Part shown: in pieces, positions 26,933 through 44,183 of the stretch
How positions within the stretch are numbered: the stretch's first letter is position 1
Layout of the letters: the number at the start of each line of letters is the position of its first letter
From: Thiomicrorhabdus marina
Lineage (GTDB): Bacteria; Pseudomonadota; Gammaproteobacteria; Thiomicrospirales; Thiomicrospiraceae
Length of the DNA stretch: 64,000 nt
Assembly (NCBI RefSeq): GCF_017571465.1
Contig: NZ_JAGETV010000014.1
Coordinates: forward strand, 1 to 64,000
Direction: 5' to 3'
The notes under the pieces: generated by a model
What the model saw: the letters and a program-made list of their open reading frames with translations, nothing else
Database searches by the model: none
What the model was told of the DNA's origin: nothing
Program-made: the position numbers and the translations under genes

Positions 26933-29900
26933 ATGACCCAGCCCAAAAAGTCGGAGGATTCTTCTTCAACAGAAGAGAAAACGTTATTACAAGACACAGA
27001 AAGCGCCCCAATAGACCAAGAAGCAGAGTTTCCTCCCTCGTTGATTGTGGTTGGTATCGGTGCTAGCGCAGGCGGTCTTGAAGCTCTGCAAATATTATTC
27101 TCTAGCTTTCCGGCCGATACCGGCATGAGTTTTATTCTCGCTCAGCACCTTTCGCCTTCCTATAAAAGCATGATGGTTGATCTGCTGGAAAAAGATTCCA
27201 CTATCCCTGTCGTTGCCGCTCGTAATGGGGAAAAGTTGGAGCCGAATACCTTGTATATCGGTCCGCCTAGTTACAATATTGAAGTCTCCAAAAACGACAC
27301 CATTGTTCTCTCTATGATGGGCGAAAACCGCCATATCCCACGCCCGTCGGTGGATATGTTGTTTGAATCTCTGGCAATGGCTAAAGGTGAGTCAGCAATC
27401 GGTATTGTGCTTTCCGGCACCGGAACTGACGGTTCTCGCGGCATTCGTGCGATCAAAGGCGAGGGCGGCTTCGGCATAGTGCAAGATCCGAATACCGCTA
27501 AATATGATGGCATGCCGAATGCAGCCATCAATTCCGGCAATGTCGATTTGATTCTTGCGCCGGAAGAGATGGGGCCGGAGCTCAAAAATATTTCCAATTT
27601 CCCGCGTCAGACTCCGCTTGGGTCAAAGACTGTCCTGCCCCTCGACTCTTATTTGGGCATTCTCGGAGTCCTCAAAGAACGCTTTAACGTTGATTTTACG
27701 CTCTATAAAGAGAATACGATTATGCGTCGTATTGAGCGTAGAATGCGTGCCCTAAAGATTTTTGAGGTTGAAGAATACGTTGATTTTTTGAACCAAAAAA
27801 ATAATGAAGCGGAGTTGCTGTTCAATGATATGTTGATCGGCGTGACCGCTTTTTTCCGAGATGCGCGTGCCTTTAATCGTCTCCAGGAAGAACTCAATCA
27901 TTATCTGCATAATAAGAAAAATAAGGTAATGCGGATTTGGGTACCGGGATGTTCTACAGGAGAAGAGGCGTATTCGATTGCTATTATCCTTGCGGAGATT
28001 TTAGGTTCTCTGCTTGAAGATTACAAAATTCAGATTTTTGCGACTGATATTGATAAGAACGCCATAGACTTTGCCCGCAATGGTGTCTACCCGGAAAGTG
28101 CTCTACAGAATTTGCCGAATAAAATTAAACGCAAATACTTCACTGTAAAAGGCGAGCAATTTGAGGTCATCAAACCGATAAAAATGATGGTGATCTTCTC
28201 TGAGCATAATATGATTGTTGACCCGCCTTTTTTGCGTCTTGATTTGCTCTCTTGTCGCAATTTGCTTATTTATTTTAACTTGGAATTACAACGCCAGATT
28301 TGGCCGATTTTCCATTATGCGCTGAACCCTAAAGGGCTACTGTTCTTAGGGCAGTCTGAATCAATTGGGGCTTTTCAAGAAAGTTTTAGCGTGTTGTCTA
28401 AAGGCGGCAAAATTTTCGAAGCCACTTTCAATGGTAAGAAAGTTCTACCGGTACAACAAAAAACCAAGAACAATTTGGTGGATTTTGTTAAAGACATGCC
28501 GAAAAATCCTCAAGATAAAGGGCATGCAACTAAGAAAAAAATCGATGTATTAGGTGAATTAATCTCTCTTAAAATCCGCGATTTGATGTTGCCGTATTCG
28601 ATTTTAATCAATGACAATTTAGATATTGTCTATTCGCAAGGGCAAAACCCCTTGCTGATTCGTCCGGAAGGTTTGCCGACCAATAATATTTATCAGAATA
28701 TTCATCCGCACTTAGCGGTTGATTTACGTTCTGCATTGCATCTCTTGGAGTCTAAGCAAGAAACGGCTCGTACGGCTTTCCAAAAATTAGTGATTGAAAA
28801 GGAAACGGTTTGGGCGCGACTGATTGCCGTGAATGTTGGGCATCAATCCGGCATGGGCGCTCTGGTGCTGATTTTCGGACAAATCGAACATGTGTTGGAT
28901 TTACCCATTGCGCAGATTGAAGGGGATGAGAGCAATCAAAAAGTGTTTGAAGAGCAAGAGCGTTTGCTTTTGAAAACCAAACAGCAGTTGCAGATAGTCA
29001 TTGAAGAGTTGGAAACCTCCAATGAAGAAATGCAATCGATGAACGAAGAGTTGCAAAGCTCCAATGAAGAGTTGCAAAGCTCTAATGAGGAATTGGAAAC
29101 CACTAACGAAGAATTACAGTCAACCAATGAAGAATTACAAACCGCGTATTCAGAATTACGTGCGGCCTATGAAGACAAAGACCGACAACAAACCGAATTG
29201 GAGCGTTTAGCGACAGAATTAGAGACGACGAATTCTTTGCTTATGGATGCCGAGACACTTGGTAAGACAGGTTCCTTCCATTGGGAAGTTCCGGTTAATT
29301 TAATGGTTTGGAGTAAGGGAGTTTACCAGCTGTTTGGCGTCAATGCCGAGACCTACCAGCCAACCTATGAAGCTTTGATTGGCTTGGTTTATGCTCAAGA
29401 TCGGCATGCCTTTGAGAAGTTTATTGAAAACATTTTGACCCGAGGCAATGCTGAAGAAATTACCTTTCGTGCATTGGGTTCGAAACGGCAAATCATCTGG
29501 CTAAAGCTTGAGGTAGTCGTTTCTTTCAACTCTTTAAAACAAGCGCAGTATGTCATGGGAACCTTAACCAATATTACCGAGTTGAAAGAGGCAAAGAACG
29601 AGATAGAACGTCAGAATAAGCGAGTTGATGTTCTGTTGAATGGTAGTTTAGGCGGAGTCTACATTTATGATTTTAAACTCGGTCACAATTCCTATATCAA
29701 TGATGCTTATACCAGAATCTTAGGTTACACCTTAGAGGAGTTGAATAGTCTGAGTAGTGAGGCCTTCGCCGATTTATTCCATCCGGATGATTTGCCGGTA
29801 GTCTTAGAACATATGCAGACCGTTAAGAATAGTACGCCCGGAGAAACCTTTATCATTCGCTACCGATTCAAACATAAGATAACCGGCGATTATGTATTAC

Positions 29901-30016
29901 TACATACTAAAGACACTCTCTACAATGATTCCGATAGTGCCATGCCGCAGGCAATGATCGGTATGTTTATGGAATTAAGTAGTGTGGATAATGATTCTTT
30001 AGCGATACCAAAATGA
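26933..30016 (+). CDS. CheB-CheR-PAS fusion protein (intact)
   Basis: A soluble 1027-residue fusion starts at an ATG eight bases after GGAG. CheB methylesterase (about 35-215) has the full triad Ser45 (GIGASAGG), His72 (AQHLSPS) and Asp166 (GTGTDGS). CheR (about 235-490) has IMRRIERRM, the SAM motif VPGCSTGEEAYS and SCRNLLIYFN. A coiled coil (about 680-770) with repeated [13 protein letters not shown] heptads leads to two PAS domains (about 775-1025). Such fusions lack a receiver domain, so they are not classic chemotaxis adaptors and probably modify or sense through PAS input. It is the intact paralogue of the frameshifted gene at 4224-7294. Confidence 0.92.
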   Translation: MTQPKKSEDSSSTEEKTLLQDTESAPIDQEAEFPPSLIVVGIGASAGGLEALQILFSSFPADTGMSFILAQHLSPSYKSMMVDLLEKDSTIPVVAARNGEKLEPNTLYIGPPSYNIEVSKNDTIVLSMMGENRHIPRPSVDMLFESLAMAKGESAIGIVLSGTGTDGSRGIRAIKGEGGFGIVQDPNTAKYDGMPNAAINSGNVDLILAPEEMGPELKNISNFPRQTPLGSKTVLPLDSYLGILGVLKERFNVDFTLYKENTIMRRIERRMRALKIFEVEEYVDFLNQKNNEAELLFNDMLIGVTAFFRDARAFNRLQEELNHYLHNKKNKVMRIWVPGCSTGEEAYSIAIILAEILGSLLEDYKIQIFATDIDKNAIDFARNGVYPESALQNLPNKIKRKYFTVKGEQFEVIKPIKMMVIFSEHNMIVDPPFLRLDLLSCRNLLIYFNLELQRQIWPIFHYALNPKGLLFLGQSESIGAFQESFSVLSKGGKIFEATFNGKKVLPVQQKTKNNLVDFVKDMPKNPQDKGHATKKKIDVLGELISLKIRDLMLPYSILINDNLDIVYSQGQNPLLIRPEGLPTNNIYQNIHPHLAVDLRSALHLLESKQETARTAFQKLVIEKETVWARLIAVNVGHQSGMGALVLIFGQIEHVLDLPIAQIEGDESNQKVFEEQERLLLKTKQQLQIVIEELETSNEEMQSMNEELQSSNEELQSSNEELETTNEELQSTNEELQTAYSELRAAYEDKDRQQTELERLATELETTNSLLMDAETLGKTGSFHWEVPVNLMVWSKGVYQLFGVNAETYQPTYEALIGLVYAQDRHAFEKFIENILTRGNAEEITFRALGSKRQIIWLKLEVVVSFNSLKQAQYVMGTLTNITELKEAKNEIERQNKRVDVLLNGSLGGVYIYDFKLGHNSYINDAYTRILGYTLEELNSLSSEAFADLFHPDDLPVVLEHMQTVKNSTPGETFIIRYRFKHKITGDYVLLHTKDTLYNDSDSAMPQAMIGMFMELSSVDNDSLAIPK

Positions 30017-30362
30017 TGACTTAATAATCATTTTTATAAAATTTCGTAGATTGCCTCTGCTTTTATTGGTTTGTTAATAAAAGGCTCATCTGTGGTTCAA
30101 CATTTCTTAGCGCATTGCATTAGTGGTCATAATGCGGATTTCTGCCGCCTTGGTGATGAAATGAAAATGAACACTTTTCTAAAAAGCTTTTCAGAGCTAA
30201 AAAAGCTGTCTAGATTAACCGTGCGATGACTACAGTTAAGGCATTGTTTATGTTTGTAAATAATGCGTAGCAAAATTATCCGGCGTTAATTTGCGCTGTG
30301 AAAACTGTGTTAATGTAAAAAAATATTTACCAATATCTATTGTCTGCCAGGAGGCAAATCAA
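30017..30362. other. intergenic region, no gene
   Basis: The 346 bases between the CheB-CheR gene and the receptor gene are AT-rich. I see no coding frame, strong terminator or FliA-type promoter. The AGGAGG site at about 30350-30355 belongs to the receptor gene. Confidence 0.5.
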
Positions 30363-32087
30363 ATGTTTTTTAGTCTAAACAAACAAGAGCTTCAGCAGTG
30401 CCGAGAGCAATCTAATGATATGCAAGCTGAGTTAGATGCCATTGATAAAGTAATGGCAATTATCGAGTTCACTCCAGATGGCGATATTGTTAAGGCGAAC
30501 GAAAATTTTTTGGCGACGGTCGGTTATCAGTTGAACGAGATTGTCGGTAAGCATCACCGAATTTTTATGCCTCCGGAACAGATCAGCAGCAATGAATATG
30601 CGGTTTTATGGAAACGTTTAGCGAGTGGCGAAACCTTTAAGCAACGTTTTCCCAGAATCAATAAACAAGGCGACACGGTTTGGCTGGAGGCGTCTTATAA
30701 CCCAATCTACGATGTGCAGGGCAATGTTGCCCGTGTGGTCAAATATGCTACCGATATTACGGCTGCGGTTGAAGCCGAGCTGGAAAATAAGTCGAAATTA
30801 CAAGCGATTGACGGTGTTATGGCGGTGATAGAGTTTGATCCGCAGGGCAATATTCTTTGTGCCAATGATAATTTCCTACAAACCATGGGCTACTCGGAAC
30901 CTGAGCTTAAAGAAATGCATCACCGTATTTTTGTTACGCCGGAATATGCGGCTAGTGATGAGTACAAACAATTTTGGGCCAGTCTTGGAAGCGGTAAGCA
31001 CAATAAAGATATCTTCCTGCGTATTACCAAATCCGGTCAGACAGTCTGGTTGGATGCCAGTTACAACCCGATTTTCGATGTTAAAGGTCGAGTGGTCAAA
31101 GTAATCAAATACGCCAATGACATTACCGAACAAGAGAACAATCGTATTGAACTGCGCAAAGCGGTGCATGCTTTCAGCGATGTGATGAAATCGCAGCTGC
31201 AAGGGGATTTGACTCAAATTGTTGCCGGTTTCGATGCCAACAGCGACTTGAAAATGCTGCAAGATGCGATTAATCAGACCGAGGAAAAATTGCGTGAAAT
31301 CGTCAACACATCAATTCGAGCAGCGGAAACCGTCAATACTGCAGCCACCGAAGTGAGCCAAGGTTCGACCGATTTGAGTCAGCGTGTGCAGCAACAAGCG
31401 GCGGCGCTGGAACAGACCTCTGCGACGATGAACGAGATGAACAGCCAAGTACAATCCAACAGTGAAAACGCGAAGTTGGCTGCTGAAACCGCACAAAACG
31501 TGCGTGGTACGGCATCGAAGGGCGCAAAAATTATGAGTGAAACCATTGAAGCGATGGGCTCTATTCAGGAGTCGAGTTCAAAAATTGAGGAGATTGTCAC
31601 ACTCATCGATAGCATTGCTTTCCAAACCAATTTATTAGCGCTGAACGCGGCGGTGGAAGCGGCCAGAGCTGGTGAGCACGGTCGTGGTTTTGCTGTTGTT
31701 GCCAGTGAAGTGCGAAATCTAGCGCAGAAATCTGCGGATGCCGCTAAAGACATTAAGAAATTGATTGAGGAAACGGCCGAACGCGTTAGTTTAGGTTCTA
31801 AGCTAGCCAATACTTCCGGCGAGATGTTGAATGAGATTAATGCCTCGATCGGTTCCATGACCACCATGATTCAGGAGATTGCCGGAGCCTCGATTGAACA
31901 GGCGGAGGGAGTGACCCAAGTGCATCATGCAATTGCCGATATTGATGGCGTAACCCAGCAAAATGCCGCTTTGGTAGAAGAAACCACCGCAGCGGCGGAA
32001 AGTTTAAGTCACCAAGCGCAGATATTGAAAGACGAACTCGGTTTCTTCAATACCGGCGGTAATTCAATGCGAGCTTTGGGTCATTAA
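30363..32087 (+). CDS. soluble PAS-PAS methyl-accepting chemotaxis protein (BdlA-like)
   Basis: The 574-residue protein starts at the ATG at 30363, after AGGAGG; the upstream frame to 30291 has no ribosome site. Two PAS domains (about 20-140 and 145-265; [13 protein letters not shown] and [13 protein letters not shown]) precede a receptor signalling domain (about 320-560). The hairpin tip reads [20 protein letters not shown] and then [11 protein letters not shown]. There is no membrane helix, so it is a cytoplasmic receptor, as in BdlA, which links redox or energy state and cyclic di-GMP to dispersal. No CheW-binding adaptor is encoded nearby. Confidence 0.9.
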
Positions 32088-32539
32088 TCGGAGTTTTCCG
32101 GTTGTCGTATGCGAGCCTTGTTATTTTCCAGGGCTTCGACGATGACAGTCTGGCCGTTTTCTAAGGCAAAAGCATGTGGGTTAGCGATTGCCCAAGTGGT
32201 GCCTTTATAGCTGACTCGGTAATCGCCGTCGGCAGTCAATAATACTTCTCCGCTCTCGCCGGTTTGCATGGTTTCCAGATTGAGCGGTTTGGCGGCATAG
32301 ATGCGCTGGCGCAGGGTTTTTGCCAATAACAGCGTTAATATCAAGCCGACTGCGAAGGTCCAAATCAACTGAATTTCGCCGGACGGAAATTGATAAAACG
32401 CACCGACTAATCCGATTAAGATAAAAGCCAAGCCGAACAGGAATAGCACAAAGGTCGTGGTCAGCATCTCCAACGCCATCAGCACGATGCCGATAGCAAT
32501 CATGCTCCATAGCGGAATGACCGGAATATAACTTTCCAT
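32084..32539 (-). CDS. NfeD-like membrane protein
   Basis: The 151-residue protein has two to three N-terminal membrane helices (about 10-75) and a C-terminal OB-fold of the short NfeD type ([21 protein letters not shown]). It partners SPFH proteins in membrane microdomains. Its ATG overlaps the stop of the SPFH gene (TAATG), so the pair is translated as a unit. It overlaps the convergent receptor gene by 4 bases. Confidence 0.87.
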
Positions 32540-33486
32540 TATGACTCCTTAATCGGCGCGACTTTGCTTACCGAGTTAGTTGTGCCATCGCCAATATTTA
32601 GCGCCGACATCAGTGCGGTTAGGGAACCGACCATTTCCGATGTTTCAATCGGTACCACAACTTTGTTAGCCGAATCACTGGCTGCAATGCCGGAAAACGC
32701 TTGAATGCGGTCTTTCGCCAGCAAAAATTCCGAGGCGTTATGGTTTTCGCTCATCGCTTGGTTGATCATTTCCATCGCTTTCTGGTCACCTAATGCTAAT
32801 TGCTCTTTCTCGAAGCGTTTCGCTTCGGCAGTACGTTCCAGAGCTTCCGCTTCTAGAAAGGCTTTTTGACGCTCGCCTTCGGCAACACGGATGGTGGCGT
32901 TCTTTTGCCCTTGTGCTTCGGTTTCCACGGCACGACGTTTACGTTCCGCTTCCAGCATCAGTTCCATCGAGTCTTGCACTTTTTGCGGCACGATGATGTC
33001 GGCGACTTCTACACGACTGACTTTTGCCCCCCACGTTCCAGAGGCGTCATCCAGTGCCTTCAACAGAGCGGCGTTTAACTCGCTGCGTGAACTGAGCGTT
33101 TCGTCTAATTCCAGTCGCCCAATTTCTGAGCGAAGTGTGGTCTGCGCTAACTGGCTGACGGACTCTTTTAAATCCAAGATTTCATAGGTTGCCTTCTGAG
33201 CATCGTAAATGCGCATAAAGACCACCGCATCGATACCGATGGAAACGTTATCTTTGGTGATAACTTTCTGCTCAGGAATATCGATAATCTGTTCCTGAGT
33301 GTTGTATTTAGAACGGCGCTGGTCAACGAAAGGAATAATGAAGTTAATTCCGCCGTGCAGGGTTTTGTGATAACGACCAAGGCGTTCGACAACCCATTGC
33401 TCGGCCTGAGGGACAATTTTGACCGACAGAAACAGGAAGACACCGATTAGGATGATTAAGGCTAAAGTAAAGTTTAAGAAATCCAT
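32539..33486 (-). CDS. SPFH/band 7 (stomatin, QmcA-like) protein
   Basis: The 315-residue protein has one N-terminal membrane helix (about 3-25), an SPFH domain (QWVVERLGRYHKTLHGGINF through VADIIVPQKVQ) and an alanine/glutamate-rich coiled coil (about 190-245). It forms oligomeric membrane scaffolds with the NfeD partner encoded immediately downstream. The name QmcA/YbbK-like rests on this pairing, since the family is broad. Confidence 0.9.
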   Translation of the reverse strand: MDFLNFTLALIILIGVFLFLSVKIVPQAEQWVVERLGRYHKTLHGGINFIIPFVDQRRSKYNTQEQIIDIPEQKVITKDNVSIGIDAVVFMRIYDAQKATYEILDLKESVSQLAQTTLRSEIGRLELDETLSSRSELNAALLKALDDASGTWGAKVSRVEVADIIVPQKVQDSMELMLEAERKRRAVETEAQGQKNATIRVAEGERQKAFLEAEALERTAEAKRFEKEQLALGDQKAMEMINQAMSENHNASEFLLAKDRIQAFSGIAASDSANKVVVPIETSEMVGSLTALMSALNIGDGTTNSVSKVAPIKES

Positions 33487-33608
33487 GTTAGACCCTAAAG
33501 CTTGTTGAAAACTCTCTTAATATACGCTGAATTTTTCTGCGTTGCTGACAGAATCATTGAAGCAGCATACACCGTTGAGCTTGCGCAATTTTCTCTTTTG
33601 ATTGCGAT

Positions 33609-35987
33609 TTATGGTGTTACCCATTCGCCGTTATGGAATTTTAGAATTTGGCAAGATGGCCCGAATTCGCGCTGTTCCGCATTCCAGTGCACCGGGTGGT
33701 TAAGACCAATTTCCCAGATAGGGTTTTCCGCTAAATAATCATTTAATTCTCTTGGGCTGGTGGCACCGGAACGCATTAATAGCGTCAAGGTAAACTTCAT
33801 CGACATAAAGGCTTCCACCGAAATGGCATTGGCAATCTGTTTAGAGTTGCTTAATTCCGATTCCAGTAGCGCCAGTTTGAATTCGGTAATAATCGGCAAT
33901 GATGATTGCGCGATACTTGGAATTGAACTGGCGAAATATAGGTGTTTACTGTTTTCAGGGATAATGCCTTGAATCGCCGTCGGCGAAATTAAACTGACCG
34001 AGTAGAAGTGCGCTTCCGGATTGTATTGGCGATAGTTTAAATAGGTGTTGAGCAGGACTTTTTGCGAGCAGATAAAGATGACATTATGGGCTTCAATCGC
34101 TTGCAGTTTTTGCACGGTGTTTTCTAGGCTGCCTTCTGCTGTGGAACGTACATAAATAACATCGACTTCGTCAAAAAATTCAGCGATGTGTTCTTCGATT
34201 TCAAACGCCATTTGTGTTGGTGCCATCACCAATGCCGTTCGTCCGCCACGATGTTCAGAGATGTAGCGCATAATCGTCAACAACTCTTCGTAATAGGAAC
34301 TTTTGAAGTTGAAAATATTTTTATTGTGTTTCTGCCGGAATTGGTGACTGCCGATATAGGGGGCGAGCAGAATTTCTTTCATTTCTTTGGCGTAGCGAAT
34401 CAGCGGTTTGATGTCGGAAATCGGGCAGATGGTGCCGAGCCAATAATGAATATGCGCCAAATCCGGGTTTTCATAGAGGTGGATGATCTCCTTAGATGAG
34501 GAGCCGGAATCATAGATGCTGATGGCAAAATACTGATCGATTTCGGGATGCTTTTCGCGCAGCCAATTCAGTGCCAAATTGACACCAAGGTAATAGCTTT
34601 TACCAATCGCCGAAAGGTTGCCGGTCAGCGGTAAAGCCAGACCGAGGTTGTGGCGTCGTTGCTGGTTAGTCTGTTGTCGAATCTGTTGCTCAATCAGCTT
34701 AGAAATGGTCAAATTCGCGAGTCGGTCTTCATGACTCAGTGGCTTGACATCAATAGCGTGTAAGTCGTCATCGGCAATACTCTGGTTCGACTCAACCACC
34801 GAATCTTTCAAGAAATTCTGCAACTCGGCAGCGGGCATCGGTTTACCGAAATAGTTGCCTTGCACGCTGTCGCAGTTAAGCACCTTTAAAGTACTGGCGG
34901 TTTCGATGTCTTCGACGCATTTGGCGACCGTCTCCAACTTTAGTCCGATACACAAATTGATAATGTTTTTTACCAGACTGTAAGCTCGCGGGTCGAGGTT
35001 GATTTGCTCAATCAGATTAGGATCGATTTTCAATTCATCGAGTGGAATTTTTTTCAGATGATCCAGTTGTTCTGCACCATTACCGAAGTTATCGACCGAA
35101 AGTTTGAACCCCTTGATGCGTAAGCGTGTTAACACATCCAGGCTGACGCGAAAATTGCGCAAGCGGTGGGTGTTATTGATTTCCAAAGAGATAATCGAGG
35201 TCGGGATTTTGTGCTCTCGGAACTGCTGTTCTAAGGTTTCCGGTAGCTCCAAGTTTTCCAGATCGGCGGCACTTAAATTGAAAGAGTAGGTAAATGCTTC
35301 GAATTCTTTGAAATAGGCGTGGTAATCGGCAGCGAACTTTTCGACGACCATCGGTAAGAGATCAATTTCTAGTTGGTGATTGTCGATAAGTTGCCGGAAA
35401 TGCTGCGGATAGATATGTTTGCCATTTTTATCGACTAAGCGGACAAAGCTTTCCAGCGCATGCACTTGGTAGGTTTTTAACGACAGTAGCGGTTGATAAT
35501 CCAAAGCCAGTCGTTTTTCGTTAATCGCCTGCTTGATTTCCTGTTGAGATAACTGAACGGCACCGCTCTGTTCATGACAAAGATCGTCACTGGCTTCACT
35601 CTGCCGGCTTGCGGGTTGCAGGGCTTTTACAATCGAGCTGCGAATTTGCTCTAGAGTAAGCGGCTTTTGTAGTGGCGGCAGGGTTTTTAATTCATATTCG
35701 TGTGCCAGATTGTCGGCCGCGGTCAGCAATTTAGTGGCCGCCTGACTGACAAATAAAAGGGTTCCTTGGAAGCCGGCTTGAGCGAGATCGCGTACCACTT
35801 CGATGCCGTCGTATTCCGGCATCATCAGTTCGATAATAATCAGTTCAATGGTTGGATGGGTCATCAGTTCATGAGCCGCTTTTTGTGGATTGGAGACACT
35901 TAGCACATGATAGCCATTCATTTCCGCCACTTCTTCAATTAGCAAGCTGTGGTTAGGATCATTGTCGACAACAAGAATTTTTTTCAC
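33609..35987 (-). CDS. REC - degenerate EAL - periplasmic-binding-protein-like fusion
   Basis: I chose the GTG at 35987, which has GGAAG five bases ahead, giving 792 residues; an upstream TTG at 36026 is possible. A receiver domain (about 1-125, ILVVDNDPN) has Glu where the phosphorylated Asp belongs (IIIELMMPEYDG). An EAL fold (about 160-400) is degenerate: ESF for EAL, DNFGNG for DDFGTG and AKCVE for AEGVE. The last 350 residues look like a branched-chain-amino-acid-type binding protein (Peripla_BP_6; LGLALPLTGNLSAIGKSYY). There is no signal peptide, so this binding domain should be cytoplasmic. It probably acts as a ligand and cyclic-di-GMP sensor without phosphorylation. It is divergent from an HD-GYP gene. 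Confidence 0.82.
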   Translation of the reverse strand: MKKILVVDNDPNHSLLIEEVAEMNGYHVLSVSNPQKAAHELMTHPTIELIIIELMMPEYDGIEVVRDLAQAGFQGTLLFVSQAATKLLTAADNLAHEYELKTLPPLQKPLTLEQIRSSIVKALQPASRQSEASDDLCHEQSGAVQLSQQEIKQAINEKRLALDYQPLLSLKTYQVHALESFVRLVDKNGKHIYPQHFRQLIDNHQLEIDLLPMVVEKFAADYHAYFKEFEAFTYSFNLSAADLENLELPETLEQQFREHKIPTSIISLEINNTHRLRNFRVSLDVLTRLRIKGFKLSVDNFGNGAEQLDHLKKIPLDELKIDPNLIEQINLDPRAYSLVKNIINLCIGLKLETVAKCVEDIETASTLKVLNCDSVQGNYFGKPMPAAELQNFLKDSVVESNQSIADDDLHAIDVKPLSHEDRLANLTISKLIEQQIRQQTNQQRRHNLGLALPLTGNLSAIGKSYYLGVNLALNWLREKHPEIDQYFAISIYDSGSSSKEIIHLYENPDLAHIHYWLGTICPISDIKPLIRYAKEMKEILLAPYIGSHQFRQKHNKNIFNFKSSYYEELLTIMRYISEHRGGRTALVMAPTQMAFEIEEHIAEFFDEVDVIYVRSTAEGSLENTVQKLQAIEAHNVIFICSQKVLLNTYLNYRQYNPEAHFYSVSLISPTAIQGIIPENSKHLYFASSIPSIAQSSLPIITEFKLALLESELSNSKQIANAISVEAFMSMKFTLTLLMRSGATSPRELNDYLAENPIWEIGLNHPVHWNAEQREFGPSCQILKFHNGEWVTP

Positions 35988-36154
35988 GCAAACTTCCAAC
36001 AATTGCTTAGGTGATAAGAATAGCAAAATTCCCTATTGAGCAGATTGAATTTGTTTCCCTTGAGGTTGTTGATTCCTGGTAGATTTATTTTACTCCCCAT
36101 AAAAGGGTTCTGCGTATAATCGAATTTACAATAAAGCCTTAGAGTACTGCTTCT

Positions 36155-37240
36155 ATGAGACACCGTTTTAGTTCGATTACCGAAGATTTGTTACAGTTAC
36201 ATGAAGCGATGCGTAAGCGTTGGCCTGGGTTGTTGCGAGTTGCTATTGCCTTGTATGACGAGCAAAAGGAAATGTTGCACACTTTTATTAAATCGAGCCC
36301 GGATACGGGGTTACTGAATCACTACTCTATTAAACTGCAAGAAGTGCCATCTTTAGTAAAGCTTGCCGAAAGCGGCGAAGCGCGCTTGATTCAAGATTTG
36401 GAAATTTTGAAGGATCACCATACGGTGCACTCCGATGCGATTGCCGAACATTTTAAATCCAGTTATACCGAACCGTTTTATATGGCTGAAAAGCTACTCG
36501 GCTTTATCTTTTATGATGCCGATGAAGTCGGTTATTTTGATGATGATTTACTGGAGCAGATCCAAAACTACTCTCGATTGATTGAATCTTTGATTGTTTC
36601 GGAGATGTTGCCGGTCAAAGCTTTAATCGGCATGATTGACACAGCCAAAGAACTCACTAATTTACGCGATTCGGAAACCGGTAAGCATCTGATTCGAGTA
36701 GCACGCTTTACGGAAATTATCGCTTTGCAAATTGCCGATAAATACGATTTAAGTGATGAAATAATCGAGTATATGTATCACTATGCACCTTTGCACGACA
36801 TAGGAAAAATTGCTATTCCCGACAATATTCTTCTAAAGCCGGGGCCACTGGAAGATGCAGAGTATGACATTATGAAAACGCATGTTGACGAAGGCCTGAA
36901 AATGGTTGATCGCATGGTTAATCACTTTAGTTTTCAACAGATTCATCATCTGCAAATGTTAAAAGACATTATTGGTGATCATCATGAACACTATGACGGC
37001 GCCGGTTATCCAAAGGGTAAAAAAGGCAACGAGATTTCTTTGGTTGGACGCATCACTGCGGTGGCGGATGTGTTCGATGCGTTGACTTCTGACCGCATTT
37101 ATCGCAAAGCGATGCCAGTGGACGAAGTGATCGCTTATATGAAAGCGCAGAAAGGTAAGCAGTTTGATTCGGAGTGTGTTGATGCCTTGCTAGTGAATCT
37201 CGATACAGTATTGGAGATTATTGATAAATTCAAGGAATAA
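36155..37240 (+). CDS. GAF-HD-GYP cyclic-di-GMP phosphodiesterase
   Basis: The 361-residue cytoplasmic protein has a GAF-like N-terminal domain (about 5-150) and an HD-GYP domain (about 155-355). The latter carries the metal motifs HDIGKIAIPD and DHHEHYDGAGYP, so it should hydrolyse cyclic di-GMP to GMP. A -10-like TATAAT at 36115-36120 lies 35 bases upstream, without a good -35. It shares its promoter region with the divergent REC-EAL-binding-protein gene, which suggests a joint pathway. Confidence 0.9.
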   Translation: MRHRFSSITEDLLQLHEAMRKRWPGLLRVAIALYDEQKEMLHTFIKSSPDTGLLNHYSIKLQEVPSLVKLAESGEARLIQDLEILKDHHTVHSDAIAEHFKSSYTEPFYMAEKLLGFIFYDADEVGYFDDDLLEQIQNYSRLIESLIVSEMLPVKALIGMIDTAKELTNLRDSETGKHLIRVARFTEIIALQIADKYDLSDEIIEYMYHYAPLHDIGKIAIPDNILLKPGPLEDAEYDIMKTHVDEGLKMVDRMVNHFSFQQIHHLQMLKDIIGDHHEHYDGAGYPKGKKGNEISLVGRITAVADVFDALTSDRIYRKAMPVDEVIAYMKAQKGKQFDSECVDALLVNLDTVLEIIDKFKE

Positions 37241-37394
37241 AGCGCTTTAAATAGAGTGTTAAATATCTGTTGTTAATAAAATCGATTGGTTAGTTTTTCT
37301 GCAACATTCTTCCAATTTCTCTCGTACGACCTGCGTGCAGGCTTTAATAGCAACACAGGTTAAACGGCACCTCATTTCCTATTTACATTGAGCC

Positions 37395-40235
37395 TTACTT
37401 AATGAACTCACAAATCTCTTGTAAAGGCATCGGTTTGGCAAAATAGTAGCCTTGAATAAAATCGCATTTGAGGCGCCGTAGAGCGCGAAATTGTTGTTCT
37501 GTTTCGACGCCTTCGGCGATCACTTTTTTGCCGAGACCGTGTGCCATCAGAATGGTTGCGGAAACAATGGCAAAATCGTCTTTTTTACGATGGATTTCGT
37601 CAATGAATGCTTTGTCTATTTTTAGATGGTTGGCTTGAAATTGACGCAGTGAAATCAGTGAAGAATAGCCCGTACCAAAATCGTCGATGCTCAGTGCTAA
37701 ACCATTGCTTTGTGCACTTTCCAGTATCGCACTAACCGACGCTGACATCTTGCTGTAGGCAGTTTCGGTAATTTCAAAATCGAGTTGTTCGAAGCTCAGT
37801 TCGCTGTGTTCGATGACTTCCAAGAACTCAACGAGATTTTCGATATGGCTGAGTAGTTCGCCGGAAATATTAATCGATACTCGGTCATGAAATCCGTTCT
37901 CCTGTAAGGTTTGAATGTCCTGTACCAATTGGCCGACCTGCCATAAGGTGATTTCACGGATCAAGCCGCGCGATTCAGCAATTGGAATGAACACCGCAGG
38001 TGAACTCATACTTTGTGCTTGTTCACTCTGTGGGAACCAACGAATTAAGGCTTCCAAGCCAACCACTCGCTCGCTCAGGGTATCGATTTTAGGTTGGTAA
38101 AAAATTTGAAACGATTTCTCAGAAATGGCTTGATTAAGTTCGCTGAGAATTTGCACTTCATGTTTGACGCGATTGGACATTTCACTTTCATAGAACACGT
38201 AGTTATTGCGGCCGCTGTCTTTTGCTTGGTACAAGGCAATATCGGCTTGGGTAACGACTTCTTCTTTGCTGAAAATCGGTTCGCAAAAAACGATGCCGAT
38301 ACTGGTACTGACAGAAATTTGGATGTCTTGTATTTCAAAAGGTGTCTTGAAAAGCTCCAAGATGCGTTCTGCAATTTGCACTGCCTCGACACCACTCGTT
38401 TCATGAGTAATCAGAATCCCGAATTCATCGCCGCCAAGACGAGCAAAAGTATCGCTGTCACGCAAGACTTCGATGATGCGATGGGTAATCTCCTTTAGAA
38501 GATGATCGCCAATTGGGTGACCGAAGGTGTCGTTAATATCTTTGAAGTGATCGACATCCAGCATCATGAGCATCGCGCGATTGCTGGTTCTCTTTTCGCG
38601 TTTTAACTCTTCTTCCAAACGGTCATTAAATAAACGGCGATTCGGTAAGCCGGTTAATTCATCATGAAATGCCAGGTGTTGGATTTTCTGCTCTTGCTCT
38701 CGACGATATGAAATATCGTGGAAAGTCACTACGGTGCCAATAATATCGTTTTTACGGAAAATTGGAGTGCTGCGGTATTCCACCGGAAAGTTTGAACCGT
38801 CTTTACGCCAAAGTACTTCGTCGCTGACAAATTCATCGTTTCCGGTTTTAATCGGTAGCATCATCCGACACTGGTGAGTTGGAATAGGCTCGCCGGATTC
38901 TTTGGAATGGTGAATTAGCGCATGATTTGGATGGCCGATTAAATCTTCTTCCCGATAACCAAGCATTTTCGCTCCGGCCGGATTGATAAAGGTCGTCGTG
39001 CCGTTCTTATCAATTCCGAAAATGCCTTCACTGGTACTGTTTAAAAGTAGCGTACTAATCTCTTGAGCCTGAAGATAATCGGTCATATCTTGCAAATAGC
39101 CGTACCAACTTTTCACTGCGCCTTGGGCATCGTAAACGACTTGATTAAAGTCATAAATATAGCGGTAGTTACCGGATTTACTTCGTATTTGATAAGACTG
39201 CTCAAAGTTGGTGGTTTGTTCGGAAAAATGTTGTTTGGCTTCCTGTATGACGCGCTCTTTATCGTCTGGATGGAGCAGGTCATAAAAACCGAATTGTGCG
39301 TTGTTCAGTAATTCGTATTGCGTATAGCCGAGCACATTAACAATATTGGCGGAGACAAAATCGACAGGCCAATTTTTTTCCGCCCGCCATTGGATAACTA
39401 CGGTTGGGCCGTTTTTGAAGAGATCACGTTCTTGTTGTATCGCTTCTTGAGCCGTTTTTATATCGGAGATATCGTCGACTACCCAAATCACGCCTTTGGC
39501 CAAATTGGCTGGAGTATTTTTATCTAAAGCCTTGCCGCTGATTCGACACCAGACGGTATCGCCATTTTTTTTACGTAGCGGATATTCGATGTGCATGTTT
39601 TTATGATAGGAGAGCGTTTGGTAGTTCTCTATGCCAAAGGTTTCAAAGTGATTTTCAGATAGGTGTAGTTCGCGCATAGAAATGCCAAACATGGCGTCAG
39701 CGGATGGGTAGCCGAAAATATCCGCCAGATGTTGATTTGCCAGATGTAAGATTTGATCCTCTTTGAGGAGCATAATTCCGATTTGCGAGTTTTCGAAAAG
39801 CGCTGCAAATTCGTTGGATTTTCGTTGCAAAGCCTGCTGTGCCTGAAAACGTTTTTCGGTATTGCTGAAAACGCCGACCATGTAACGTTCGCCGCCAATC
39901 ATAATTAAGTTGGTGGTGATTTCGACATGCAATGTACTTCCGTCCGGCCGCAAAATACTATTTTCAATGCTTTCAATTCGACCTTCTTGTTCGAGAATTT
40001 TTTGGTGTTGTAAGAAGGTGTTCGGCGTTTCGCTGGTCAGCGGCGGGTGAATGATGCTTTGATGTTTGCCAATAAGTTGTTGCTGTTCACGCGCAAACAG
40101 TTGCTCGGCTAACGGGTTGACGTATTTGATTATTCCAGTGTCAAAATACGCCACTGCGATAGCGGTCGGAAGCGAGGAGAGAAATTGATAGTATTCTTCC
40201 TCCTCGGCAACTTGTGGCAGTTGTTTGGTGTGCAT
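37395..40235 (-). CDS. multi-PAS GGDEF-EAL protein
   Basis: The cytoplasmic protein of 946 residues has four PAS domains (about 12-130, 135-255, 265-390 and 395-510), then GGDEF (about 515-680; RLGGDEFGI) and EAL (about 690-940; GLEALIRW, DDFGTGYSSL, AEGVE). All main catalytic motifs are present, so both synthesis and breakdown of cyclic di-GMP are possible. There is no membrane helix. The start is the ATG at 40235. It is a lone gene, and the PAS ligands cannot be told from sequence. Confidence 0.9.
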   Translation of the reverse strand: MHTKQLPQVAEEEEYYQFLSSLPTAIAVAYFDTGIIKYVNPLAEQLFAREQQQLIGKHQSIIHPPLTSETPNTFLQHQKILEQEGRIESIENSILRPDGSTLHVEITTNLIMIGGERYMVGVFSNTEKRFQAQQALQRKSNEFAALFENSQIGIMLLKEDQILHLANQHLADIFGYPSADAMFGISMRELHLSENHFETFGIENYQTLSYHKNMHIEYPLRKKNGDTVWCRISGKALDKNTPANLAKGVIWVVDDISDIKTAQEAIQQERDLFKNGPTVVIQWRAEKNWPVDFVSANIVNVLGYTQYELLNNAQFGFYDLLHPDDKERVIQEAKQHFSEQTTNFEQSYQIRSKSGNYRYIYDFNQVVYDAQGAVKSWYGYLQDMTDYLQAQEISTLLLNSTSEGIFGIDKNGTTTFINPAGAKMLGYREEDLIGHPNHALIHHSKESGEPIPTHQCRMMLPIKTGNDEFVSDEVLWRKDGSNFPVEYRSTPIFRKNDIIGTVVTFHDISYRREQEQKIQHLAFHDELTGLPNRRLFNDRLEEELKREKRTSNRAMLMMLDVDHFKDINDTFGHPIGDHLLKEITHRIIEVLRDSDTFARLGGDEFGILITHETSGVEAVQIAERILELFKTPFEIQDIQISVSTSIGIVFCEPIFSKEEVVTQADIALYQAKDSGRNNYVFYESEMSNRVKHEVQILSELNQAISEKSFQIFYQPKIDTLSERVVGLEALIRWFPQSEQAQSMSSPAVFIPIAESRGLIREITLWQVGQLVQDIQTLQENGFHDRVSINISGELLSHIENLVEFLEVIEHSELSFEQLDFEITETAYSKMSASVSAILESAQSNGLALSIDDFGTGYSSLISLRQFQANHLKIDKAFIDEIHRKKDDFAIVSATILMAHGLGKKVIAEGVETEQQFRALRRLKCDFIQGYYFAKPMPLQEICEFIK

Positions 40236-40368
40236 AGCGGTTCGGCAACTCGGTTGTTGATAAGGACTTGAAAAAAATGTGTCCGAACTTTAATCATAAT
40301 CTCGGAAAGCGTGTTCGGTGCGGTTTTTTACTTGATGGGCTGCAAGAAGTGGTCGTTTTCTGTCTTGT

Positions 40369-41211
40369 CTAGACTTTTCGCGGTAGGTAGATAAATGACA
40401 ACATCGACACCGAGCTCATATCAATCACATTGTTGAAAAAATGGATTTCGTCTTGTTGGCTGCGTAACCCCAAAGCATACAGTAACGGTAAATAGTGATC
40501 GTAACTCGGATGTGCCATTTTCCCCAGAGCGCCGAAATTGGAAAAGTTCACCAGTCTCTGGTCGTCAAAGTCGGCCAGCGCTTCTTTTACGATTTGGTTA
40601 AACTCCAAAGCCCAATCGAAGGGTTCAGCATTATTCCACTGCAGTTTTTGTAAGTTGTGCACCAAATTGCCACTGGCGATGACCAGTACGCCGCGTTTAC
40701 GCAAATCTTGCAGACGTTGAGCTAATTGATAATGAAATGGCGGCGCTTTGCGGTAATCGATACTGATCTGATATACCGGAACATCGGCGTCCGGAAACAT
40801 TGACAGCAATACCGACCAAGTGCCGTGATCTAAGCCCCATTCGTCGGTTTCGCTAATGATGTCCGGGGCTAATTTTTGCGTCTGGTGAGCCTGTTCAGGT
40901 GAGCCGGAACAAGGATACTTCTGGGCAAAAAGTTCTTCAGGAAAACCGTAAAAATCGTGGATGGTTTGTGGCTGTTTGGAAGCATGTACCAGCGTGTTGC
41001 CATGGGTTAACCAGTGCGCTGAAACGGATAGAATCGCTTTGGGTTTTGGTAAAGCATTGCCGATGCTGTGCCAGCTTTGGGTAAAAGGGTTATCACTGAT
41101 CGCGTTCATCGGATTGCCGTGACCGACAAACAACACTGGCATTTGTTCCGGTAATCTTGGTAGTTGTTGTAGTTGGTTCACCAGCTTTTGTAAGTTGAGT
41201 TCTGCATTCAT
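40369..41211 (-). CDS. ygiD: 4,5-DOPA dioxygenase extradiol-like protein (YgiD)
   Basis: The 280-residue protein belongs to the LigB-like extradiol dioxygenases. Metal and catalytic histidines appear in VLFVGHGNPMNAI, AHWLTHGN and LDHGTWSVL. Homologues open the ring of DOPA or other catechols, but the natural substrate in most bacteria is uncertain. The ATG at 41211 is the first in the frame. It is divergent from the Aer-like gene and has no pathway partner nearby. Confidence 0.88.
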   Translation of the reverse strand: MNAELNLQKLVNQLQQLPRLPEQMPVLFVGHGNPMNAISDNPFTQSWHSIGNALPKPKAILSVSAHWLTHGNTLVHASKQPQTIHDFYGFPEELFAQKYPCSGSPEQAHQTQKLAPDIISETDEWGLDHGTWSVLLSMFPDADVPVYQISIDYRKAPPFHYQLAQRLQDLRKRGVLVIASGNLVHNLQKLQWNNAEPFDWALEFNQIVKEALADFDDQRLVNFSNFGALGKMAHPSYDHYLPLLYALGLRSQQDEIHFFNNVIDMSSVSMLSFIYLPRKV

Positions 41212-41549
41212 TGAGTCTTTCTCGTTCTCTATTGTGGTTATTAGGCAATATCGATAGAGATTGATAAAGAGGCTTTTTAGATTTTAAGTTTTTCCATTTG
41301 GGTTGTGCTGGCGCCTTTTGTCTTTTGAATGAATTTTCGATTCGCGATAGAAAAGCGGTTTTTTACATTCTAAGAATAGATTTATTTAATCAATAACCCT
41401 ACCTTAATAAGTAATTGTAATTATTTTATGACTTGCTAAATGCTTCTTGTGGGTATAGTGTATTTACCTAGGTTTTTGTACTTAGTTTACTGGTAAAGAT
41501 AATAAGATTTAACTGGTTAACTATGATGAGCATGTACGAGGTTAGAACG
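41212..41549. other. divergent intergenic region
   Basis: This AT-rich gap must hold promoters for ygiD (minus) and the Aer-like receptor (plus). TTGCTA (41433-41438) and TATAGT (41454-41459) are promoter-like, but the spacing is only 15 bases. No gene or FliA-type consensus is visible. Confidence 0.35.
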
Positions 41550-44183
41550 ATGCGCCAGAATTTACCCGTCACCAATGAAGAATATTTAATTCCAAACGGT
41601 GTCTCTCTTGTTTCACAAACAGATTTGCACGGTACTATTACCGATTGTAATGATGCTTTTCAAATTGCCAGTGGTTATGAACGCGATGAATTGATTGGTC
41701 AGCCGCATAATATGATTCGCCATCCAGATGTTCCGGAAGTCGTTTTTGCGGATATGTGGCGAACTTTGCAGAAAGGTCATCCCTGGTCGCAGTTAGTCAA
41801 GAATCGTCGCGCCGATGGCGGTTTTTATTGGGTGAAAGCGAATGTCACTCCTCTATTCAATGAGGGGGAAATCTATGGTTATATGTCGGTGCGAAGCACG
41901 ATCAATGCTGAAGAAAAGGCTGCCGGTACTTTGATTTATGATGATTTGCGCAATGGTAAAGGCACATTGAAATTCGGTAATTACCGACACGGTTTTGATT
42001 GGAGTAAGTTTAATCCAATGTCTTCATTCAAGCCGGTTACGCAAGTGATGTTATTGATGTCGATGCTCTATTTGCTACCAACTCAAGTGTTTGCGTGGGC
42101 CAATGATATTAGTCCGTCAACGCCGTTAATGTATGCGCTGATGGGATTGATTCCGACCTTGCTGTTTATGTGGTGGTATATGCAACGTAACGAATTCGGG
42201 CGCGTGTTGATGCATAGGATTGCTAACCACGAAGAGGTTGATTTTGGCGAATTCAATCCGGATTCGATTTCCGGTAAGCTTTTGGGCGCGATGCGCTCGG
42301 TGTCGGTGGCAACACGTGCTAAAAGCGAGCAAGCACTGCATGAATTGGATCAGCATAAACAACTCAAAGTAGCGATTGATCAAATCAGTACCAATATTAT
42401 GATTGCCAATCGCAAGCTGGAAATCTCTTATATGAATGAACATATGCAGAAGTTTCTGAAAGCACGTGAAGCCAAGTTGAAAGAAGCCTTGCCGAATTTT
42501 GATGCCGACAACCTGATTGGCGTCAATATTGATATTTTTCATAAGAATCCGGCGCATAACCGCCAGATGATTCAGAGTTTCAAAGAATCGACCTACACCG
42601 AAATCAAGGTCGCCGGTTTGTATCTCGGTTTACAGATTATTCCCGTATTTAACCGCAACGGCGATCATGTCAATACGGTGGTTGAGTGGCAAGATAAAAC
42701 GGCAGAAAAACAGTTGGTCGAGCACGTTGGTTCAGTGGTGCAGTCTGCTAAAGAGGGGCTGCTTGATCAGCGCATAGACCTTTCTGAACTAGAAGGTGTT
42801 GCACAGATTCTAGGTGAAAAAATTAATCAATTGTTGGATTCTATTGAACCGCCGATGAATGATGCCATCTCTTTGGCTGCCGCATTGGAGCAAGGCGATT
42901 TGACCTATTCGATTGAGGCGCCTTATCAAGGACGATTTGCGCTACTGAAAGAGAGTTTGAACGTCGCTGTTGAGAACCTTAATTCGATGATGTTGCAGAC
43001 TAAAAATGCGGCGCAGGGTGTCGAAAATGGCGCGGTGCATATCTCGCAAGGCAGCCGAGATTTGAATGATCGAACTCAGCAGCAGGCGGCTTCTCTGGAA
43101 GAAACGGCGGCGAGTATGGAGCAGATGACTGCCGGTGTAAAACAGAGTGCTGAACATGCACGTGAAGCAGCAAAATTAACCAAAGAAACCGTACAATCGG
43201 CGATTGGTAGCTCTGATGTCATGCAGGAAGGTATTTCCTCGATGGAGGCGATTCGCGAGTCCAGTCAGAAAATCCATAACATTATTGAATTGATCGATTC
43301 GATTGCTTTTCAGACCAATCTTTTGGCTTTAAATGCGGCTGTTGAAGCAGCTCGTGCTGGGGAACATGGACGAGGTTTTGCTGTTGTTGCCGGCGAAGTG
43401 AGAAGTTTGGCTCAGAAGTCAGCCACTGCTGCGAATGATATTCGTGTCTTGATTGATGATACCGTCAATAAAATCTCCACAGGAACCGAGAATATTGAGA
43501 TGGCCGGTAAATCGATGCAAGAGATGATTGAGTCGATTCATGAAGTTAGTCGTTTTGTCGAGCAAATTGCCGATTCTAGCGCTGAGCAAAGTTCTGGTAT
43601 TGTACAAGTTAATCAGGCGATTGCGGCGATGGATTCCAATGTTCAGCAGAATGCGGCGATGGTCGAACAAACGTCTTCTACCGCTGAAGAGTTGGAGCGT
43701 TCCGCGGAATTATTAATCGGTAATGTGGGTAATTTCACCTTAGTCGGCAGTGAAAATAGTTCTTTAGCAGGTATGGAATTAGGTTTTGATTTTGAGGCGG
43801 CCAAGCGAGCGCACCGCTCTAATCGTGTCAAGATTCGCAGTCTGATCAGTGATGCGCACACCACCAATTTGGATAAGCGTATGACTGATCCAAAAGTCTG
43901 TGAACTCGGTAAATGGTTAGCAAGTGCCGGCCAGCAGTACTCAAGTAATCCGGTGTTCCACTCCTTGCAACAGTCGCATGATAATTACCACGCCTATATT
44001 GGAAAAATTTTCCAACATAAAGAAATTGGCGATCATGATGGTGCTAATCAAATGGCCGATAAGATTGAAGAAATGGTCAATCAAGTCATCAGTTTAATCG
44101 ACCAGTTCCAAGCGGAGGTGGTTAAAGGTTCGCAAGCTTCTGGAAGTGGTCGCGCCTTGCTGGATATGCGAGTGGCCAGTTAA
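41550..44183 (+). CDS. Aer-like aerotaxis receptor with C-terminal CZB domain
   Basis: The 877-residue receptor starts at the ATG at 41550 (MRQNLPVTNEEY), eight bases after GAGG; an in-frame ATG at 41523 is less likely. The N-terminal PAS (about 20-125) has the Aer motifs GQPHNMIRHPDVP and KNRRADGGFYWV, so FAD and redox sensing are expected. Two membrane helices (about 165-215) follow, then a HAMP-like and second PAS-like region. The signalling domain reads [20 protein letters not shown]. The end is a zinc-binding CZB domain (H...CELGKWLASAG...H). It is longer than E. coli Aer (506 residues) and adds the extra sensors. Confidence 0.9.
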   Translation: MRQNLPVTNEEYLIPNGVSLVSQTDLHGTITDCNDAFQIASGYERDELIGQPHNMIRHPDVPEVVFADMWRTLQKGHPWSQLVKNRRADGGFYWVKANVTPLFNEGEIYGYMSVRSTINAEEKAAGTLIYDDLRNGKGTLKFGNYRHGFDWSKFNPMSSFKPVTQVMLLMSMLYLLPTQVFAWANDISPSTPLMYALMGLIPTLLFMWWYMQRNEFGRVLMHRIANHEEVDFGEFNPDSISGKLLGAMRSVSVATRAKSEQALHELDQHKQLKVAIDQISTNIMIANRKLEISYMNEHMQKFLKAREAKLKEALPNFDADNLIGVNIDIFHKNPAHNRQMIQSFKESTYTEIKVAGLYLGLQIIPVFNRNGDHVNTVVEWQDKTAEKQLVEHVGSVVQSAKEGLLDQRIDLSELEGVAQILGEKINQLLDSIEPPMNDAISLAAALEQGDLTYSIEAPYQGRFALLKESLNVAVENLNSMMLQTKNAAQGVENGAVHISQGSRDLNDRTQQQAASLEETAASMEQMTAGVKQSAEHAREAAKLTKETVQSAIGSSDVMQEGISSMEAIRESSQKIHNIIELIDSIAFQTNLLALNAAVEAARAGEHGRGFAVVAGEVRSLAQKSATAANDIRVLIDDTVNKISTGTENIEMAGKSMQEMIESIHEVSRFVEQIADSSAEQSSGIVQVNQAIAAMDSNVQQNAAMVEQTSSTAEELERSAELLIGNVGNFTLVGSENSSLAGMELGFDFEAAKRAHRSNRVKIRSLISDAHTTNLDKRMTDPKVCELGKWLASAGQQYSSNPVFHSLQQSHDNYHAYIGKIFQHKEIGDHDGANQMADKIEEMVNQVISLIDQFQAEVVKGSQASGSGRALLDMRVAS

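Follow-up and report, generated by a model that had tools for sequence, protein, structure and literature searches.

A gene of the window (the whole stretch of 64,000 nucleotides analysed here) appears, from its sequence, to encode a cytoplasmic signalling protein: a defective phosphate switch is joined to a probably inactive c-di-GMP-cleaving EAL domain and to a binding-protein domain of a type that usually resides outside the cytoplasm (Table 1). Its anatomy, its residue losses and the kinase linkage pattern of its family can be seen directly in the sequences. The reading that we tentatively put forward, and to which we give slightly less than an even chance, is that of a two-component c-di-GMP regulator that is no longer served by a kinase and would answer a cytosolic ligand instead, like AmiC-AmiR in one chain, with the EAL domain as a c-di-GMP-dependent binding module.

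Anatomy, surroundings and the C-terminal domain

Pfam recognized a Response_reg domain (43 bits; gathering score 30.2), an EAL domain (173.3 bits; 31.3) and, 0.1 below its gathering score of 31.7, a Peripla_BP_6 domain (31.6 bits). This order of receiver (REC), EAL and binding protein had been proposed in an initial annotation made from the letters alone, and it was borne out by Pfam, by homologues and by a family profile. The motif GGAAG lies five bases 5' of the GTG start. An ANTAR output domain was not found in the protein by the Pfam scan.

Table 1 Features of the gene and the encoded protein (positions in the window).
Feature	Position	Strand	Basis or remark
Whole gene, 792 aa	33609..35987	(-)	GTG start at 35987, stop at 33609
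Alternative start TTG	36026	(-)	+13 residues if used
Receiver domain, residues 1-120	35628..35987	(-)	Response_reg match 4-86; aligned with RocR receiver
Codon of N9, replaces second acidic pocket Asp	35961..35963	(-)	Residue table
Codon of E53, replaces phosphorylated Asp	35829..35831	(-)	Alignment, residue table
EAL domain, residues 149-383	34839..35543	(-)	Pfam EAL 6.9e-51
Codon of N272 = RocR E268 position	35172..35174	(-)	RocR alignment
Codon of N300 = RocR D296 position, metal ligand	35088..35090	(-)	RocR alignment
Codon of K356 = RocR E352 position, catalytic Glu	34920..34922	(-)	RocR alignment
Linker, residues 384-447	34647..34838	(-)	Differs among homologues
Type I binding-protein domain (Peripla_BP_6), residues 448-774	33666..34646	(-)	Pfam and family profile

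The hydropathy maximum of the window protein is 1.14 (19-residue Kyte-Doolittle mean), and a membrane segment is therefore unlikely; among the homologues the maximum is 1.82, at residue 40 of the G022 protein, within the receiver. Hydropathy and the position of the binding domain C-terminal to REC-EAL revealed neither a signal peptide nor a membrane segment in the window protein, in agreement with the intracellular location given in the initial annotation, and on these same grounds an exported protein was ruled out. A fusion made during assembly was likewise ruled out, since the identical domain order occurs in six homologues from other genomes.

The gene lies in a dense stretch of signalling genes (26933-44183), which holds genes for a CheB-CheR-PAS protein (26933-30016), a PAS-PAS chemoreceptor (30291-32087), an HD_5 protein that also matches GAF weakly (36155-37240) and a PAS-GGDEF-EAL protein (37395-40235), as well as a chemoreceptor-like ORF (41523-44183). 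Just 3' of the window gene, positions 32084-33486 of the same strand hold an SPFH/Band 7 gene and an NfeD-like one (24.3 bits, a score under the cut-off). The window gene is divergent from the HD_5 gene across a 167-base gap (35988-36154), and one control region may serve both of these c-di-GMP-related genes; a simple promoter scan found no site in this gap.

A seven-row profile of the C-terminal domain matched solved binding proteins (4kv7, E 4.6e-24; 3lop, 6.8e-13), and the match to 4kv7 spans both lobes (positions 11-333 of 342). Taken on its own, the window domain had 3lkb as its sole structure match (E 0.017), and a single-sequence AlphaFold2 model of residues 440-792 reached a mean pLDDT of 40.5, too low for use. 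Peripla_BP_6 was scanned in five homologues, L014, a near copy of L013, being left out: it scored above the cut-off in L011 (70.5 bits) and L015 (78.4 bits) and below it in L012 (22.3 bits) and L016 (31.6 bits), and L013 gave no match at E<=0.01. By this family evidence we assign the C-terminal domain to the type I solute-binding fold, Peripla_BP_6. The profile match to 4kv7 is thus the opposite of what the initial annotation had named as counting against it, namely a C-terminal part without a binding-protein fold. Its term 'amino-acid-type' is suggested by family resemblance.

Both lobes were found in all seven members, with 24 invariant columns in the binding domain, which argues against the idea that the domain has lost ligand binding and is used for dimerisation or docking. 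We consider this idea improbable, even though several members score under the Peripla_BP_6 cut-off or give no match, and close kinase-linked REC-EAL relatives persist without the domain.

The C-terminal profile, the window gene included, had matches in 10 of 369 class genomes (E<=1e-10, 12 rows) and in 21 of 398 phylum genomes (E<=1e-15, 29 rows); at most five best candidates per genome were scored, and each sample covers a small fraction of its group. Among the matches listed for the 369 class and 398 phylum genomes there was no further fusion, all frames except the window gene having 380-553 aa, a length insufficient for the fusion, and plasmids gave no match at E<=1e-3. Ten of the 11 rows with free relatives in the class were taken with their surroundings (G152 was left out). 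In four of these ten regions a receptor-type gene adjoins the free binding protein: a TorS-type kinase (L068:7374-10813), a hybrid kinase (L075:6422-10600), a chemoreceptor together with a PAS-GGDEF-EAL protein (L076:224-5479), and a Cache-domain protein in which no output domain was found (L077:4435-7843). One neighbour was domain-scanned among the other six regions, a purine-synthesis enzyme in L073. The adjoining sensor kinases, chemoreceptor or Cache-domain protein suggest a sensor-associated branch of Peripla_BP_6. Five of seven free forms checked have, by hydropathy, a strongly hydrophobic N-terminus resembling a signal peptide.

Receiver and EAL residues

The receiver carries E53, within IELMMPEYDG, at the position of the phospho-Asp of RocR, which confirms the Glu given for this site in the initial annotation. 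According to the residue table, D8, S81 and K108 are kept and E53 and N9 are substitutions, so that a phosphorylatable Asp with its acidic pair is not present. With its phospho-Asp replaced, the domain falls under the definition of aspartate-less receivers in PMC4395418. There, Glu is the commonest substitute (26%), the first triad position and the Lys are mostly kept, and the second triad position is acidic in only 29%; D8, N9 and K108 of the window protein correspond to this pattern.

The initial annotation took the Glu as a built-in active mimic. The residue is indeed present, and Glu mimics phospho-Asp in some regulators (PMC4395418); however, a mimic is one option only. A constitutively 'on' receiver, and with it a permanently switched-on regulator, seems to us rather unlikely, given that an Asp-to-Glu change alone is often insufficient for constitutive activity (PMC4395418) and that the second acidic residue of the window receiver is lost as well; such a receiver would also be compatible with control by a ligand rather than exclusive of it. 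Because of the same two points, the insufficiency of Glu alone and N9, it is safer to read the sequence as that of a receiver to which phosphorylation no longer has access.

RocR (3sy8) matched residues 4-393 of the window protein (E 2e-24), with the window numbering being that of RocR plus four. PMC7911125 names eight residues of RocR. Six of these are kept (Q165, R183, E179, N237, E269 and D299 in the window protein) and two are lost (D296 to N300 and E352 to K356). In addition, the alignment places N272 at RocR E268, and K320, E359 and Q376 are likewise kept. RocR E175, N233, E265, D295, D296 and E352 are metal-coordinating (PMC7911125), and Glu352 is named among the catalytic residues in PMC12943098, where mutating the first Glu of the ExxE motif of TBD1265 abolished activity. 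The phosphodiesterase catalytic set is thus incomplete in the window protein (N300, K356). The lack of several catalytic residues noted in the initial annotation is therefore real (N272, N300, K356), and hydrolysis of c-di-GMP by this EAL domain is unlikely because the positions of E268, D296 and E352 are all replaced.

Binding of c-di-GMP is possible, and the read-out through such binding proposed in the initial annotation is compatible with the retained EAL residues. The loss of the catalytic Glu and of a metal ligand would also fit an EAL domain that is blind to c-di-GMP and acts as a protein-binding module, as YdiV does for FlhDC, the binding domain setting its grip on a partner; EAL roles independent of phosphodiesterase activity are known (PMC5579053; PMC3510510). 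Since E179, R183, Q165, N237, E269, D299, K320 and Q376 are all kept, and since c-di-GMP is bound even by FimX, in which four of ten key residues are left (PMC3527489), we regard this explanation as doubtful.

Kinase linkage and phylogeny of the family

Of the 62 family genomes, 12 matched a REC-EAL profile at E<=1e-70, with 21 rows in all: seven with the binding domain, seven close ones without it (396-421 aa) and seven more distant ones. The fusion with the binding domain was found in six of the 62 genomes, that of the window included, with six further copies in the five others. These six homologues have 767-843 aa and share the order REC, EAL, binding domain. The initial annotation knew of no described system with this order; we too found no report in the open-licence literature, but the order is not solitary.

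Five of the seven binding-domain copies directly follow a hybrid kinase of one family, the exceptions being the window gene and G022 (L015), and all seven close copies without the binding domain directly follow a kinase of that same family. Five of the kinases were scanned and contain HK_sensor_dom_bact/dCache, PAS, HisKA, HATPase_c and REC domains. Asp53 is present in all 12 kinase-linked rows and Glu in both kinase-less rows (Fisher p 0.011, with rows that are related and a contrast picked after seeing the data). This 14-row count includes the near copies G026 and G049 and leaves out five distant rows, all with Asp (G000_C66, G022b_HK, G054, G029b and G029c); the last two distant rows, G054:C46 and G057, were left out of the residue comparison.

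Both Glu rows have also lost the second acidic residue (N9 in the window protein, V9 in G022) and the EAL catalytic Glu (K356 and Q356, respectively). At the EAL positions compared (179, 237, 269, 272, 299, 300, 320, 356, 359 and 376), catalytic residues are altered in three of the seven binding-domain rows, namely the window protein, G022 and the kinase-linked G005 (Y300, I356), and the seven close rows that lack the domain show no such change. Since G005 is still linked to its kinase, the loss of EAL residues is more than a plain consequence of losing the kinase.

The Pfam scan revealed no kinase among the eight genes covered, the window gene and those around it. A kinase profile built from 12 kinases was run on five genomes at E<=1e-40. 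In G022 it gave one partial match (175.5 bits) and no full-length kinase of the family. The window genome yielded a single full-length match (956.7 bits), already adjoined by a REC-EAL of its own on contig 55, as well as three partial matches (168-242 bits). The window genome also encodes another REC-EAL protein, of 419 aa, and the adjoining protein, of 1043 aa, matches the kinase profile weakly (4.3e-15; L063:4971-9362). A 1365-aa protein of G022 (L064:1664-5761) combines a related C-terminal REC-EAL with a kinase-profile match (3.8e-45) and is possibly kinase and output regulator fused. In G046 (L011:115-3019), a gene that by eye putatively encodes a solute-binding lipoprotein of 293 aa lies directly against a gene for a 673-aa protein with a REC-EAL-profile match; the two are divergent from the hybrid kinase and REC-EAL-binding-protein pair of that genome and might be an NspS-MbaA-type pair.

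In the class sample, the REC-EAL profile matched 57 of 369 genomes at E<=1e-70, with at most five best candidates per genome scored. Four rows with longer frames were opened (G359, G113, G355 and G361). In two of them (767 and 672 aa) a weak additional match resembling a receiver lies towards the N-terminus; the remaining two, of 397 and 428 aa, are REC-EAL proteins that adjoin kinase-profile matches. The binding-domain profile, which was also run on a class sample of equal size (369), matched none of these four. A scan of genome contigs had as its sole locus a Mesorhizobium EAL match (L003), which was left unused.

The binding-domain tree groups the window protein with G046a (100/99) and rejects a clade of the window protein and G022 (AU p 0.003), which is why the losses of kinase input in the two look independent. 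In the REC-EAL tree, one clade of all binding-domain rows is rejected (p 0.0002), and the clade of the window protein and G022 falls short of rejection (AU p 0.059), so that independence is unsecured there. The kinase tree splits the binding-domain rows, too. The kinase-less rows are only two, both on long branches; that of the window protein is long in both its trees and the longest REC-EAL branch among the 14 close rows. A single gain of the binding domain followed by losses would be the simple story, and the counts fit gain or loss alike. The trees and residue losses may be put together as follows, a scenario that we hold with somewhat less confidence than the mechanism favored above: a two-component lineage would have internalised a solute-binding domain, as a rule exported, as a second input and at least twice dropped its kinase, each time with an Asp-to-Glu change and loss of the second acidic residue and the EAL Glu, leading to a one-component metabolite sensor that reads rather than cuts c-di-GMP.

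Taking as invariant the columns that do not vary in the other members compared, the window protein keeps 17 of 25 in the receiver, 37 of 53 in the EAL domain and 24 of 32 in the binding domain, in each case the smallest share among the seven. This lowest retention also fits relaxed constraint and counts against the favored mechanism. Together with the long REC-EAL branch, the several losses at key residues and the lack of a kinase among the eight genes scanned, it could point to a decaying duplicate, in which receiver and EAL drifted after kinase loss and little function is left. Such decay is unlikely in our view: the reading frame is open over 792 codons, most of the otherwise invariant columns are still present in each domain, the Asp-to-Glu change and the loss of the second acidic residue recur in G022, and the substitute found is the commonest one in aspartate-less receivers (PMC4395418).

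Proposed mechanism and known systems

In the mechanism that we favor, the window protein is a REC-EAL response regulator of the RocR/PvrR architecture whose C-terminal type I solute-binding domain stays in the cytoplasm. In most relatives, encoded after a hybrid kinase, this domain would bring in a second signal, one from the cytosol. The kinase input appears to be gone in the window genome because the phospho-Asp is absent and a different REC-EAL is the partner of the one full-length kinase that the family has there. A cytosolic small molecule, amino-acid-like to judge by the family, would close the binding domain, and the closure would be relayed through the REC-EAL body, much as AmiC controls AmiR. 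The EAL domain would then act as a c-di-GMP-dependent module that binds a partner, not as a phosphodiesterase. Ligand binding, its coupling to the REC-EAL body, c-di-GMP binding and the target are predictions of this scheme.

Each of the domains is already known, as are REC-EAL proteins beside hybrid kinases and periplasmic binding-protein sensors in c-di-GMP proteins. RocR and PvrR share the REC-EAL order over about 400 residues; the PvrR model NF052596 is the best NCBIfam model for the window protein (179.5 bits, far below its cut-off of 580), and relatives of the window protein adjoin a hybrid kinase as rocR adjoins the kinase gene rocS1 (PMC12051241). In contrast to both, the window protein has a C-terminal binding domain and lacks the phospho-Asp, the catalytic Glu and an adjoining kinase. 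The nearest working parallel is AmiC-AmiR, which is cited for cytosolic proteins with this type of binding domain (PMC9602780): AmiC, a binding protein that senses an amide, controls AmiR, whose receiver is aspartate-less (PMC3369931, PMC4395418). However, AmiC and AmiR are two proteins, with an ANTAR RNA-binding output, and AmiC was not among the 16 structures matched by the domain profile at E<=1.

In NspS-MbaA, a binding protein controls an EAL protein across the membrane (PMC8079147); there, NspS is periplasmic, MbaA is a membrane GGDEF-EAL protein, and the genes are separate. RmcA has a binding-fold sensor that we take to be N-terminal, in a protein that presumably has an EAL domain. It resembles the window protein in carrying a binding-protein-fold sensor in a c-di-GMP protein (PMC8846402), but this sensor is of the SBP_bac_3 type and periplasmic. 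PBP-clan domains are prevalent in c-di-GMP proteins and called periplasmic in PMC8846402, where SBP_bac_3 is the only one studied and a LacI-type Periplas_BP domain is listed separately among sensory domains of unknown function. Like the window protein, FimX has a degenerate EAL domain, there binding c-di-GMP (PMC3527489). FimX and LapD have no binding-protein domain, and c-di-GMP binding was shown for them, whereas it is predicted for the window protein. The LIV-type solute-binding proteins (4kv7, 3lop) have a homologous domain by profile but are free-standing and were deposited as periplasmic or amino-acid-binding. LapD, for its part, has a degenerate EAL domain and binds c-di-GMP. In the open-licence literature we found no report of a binding domain placed C-terminally in the cytosol, nor of such a placement going with the loss of a kinase.

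Overall, a cytosolic PBP-clan sensor fused to an EAL response regulator would, if true, give c-di-GMP control a sensory input by a new route. The seven proteins, five with a kinase and two without, may provide a natural series from a two-component to a ligand-gated one-component regulator.
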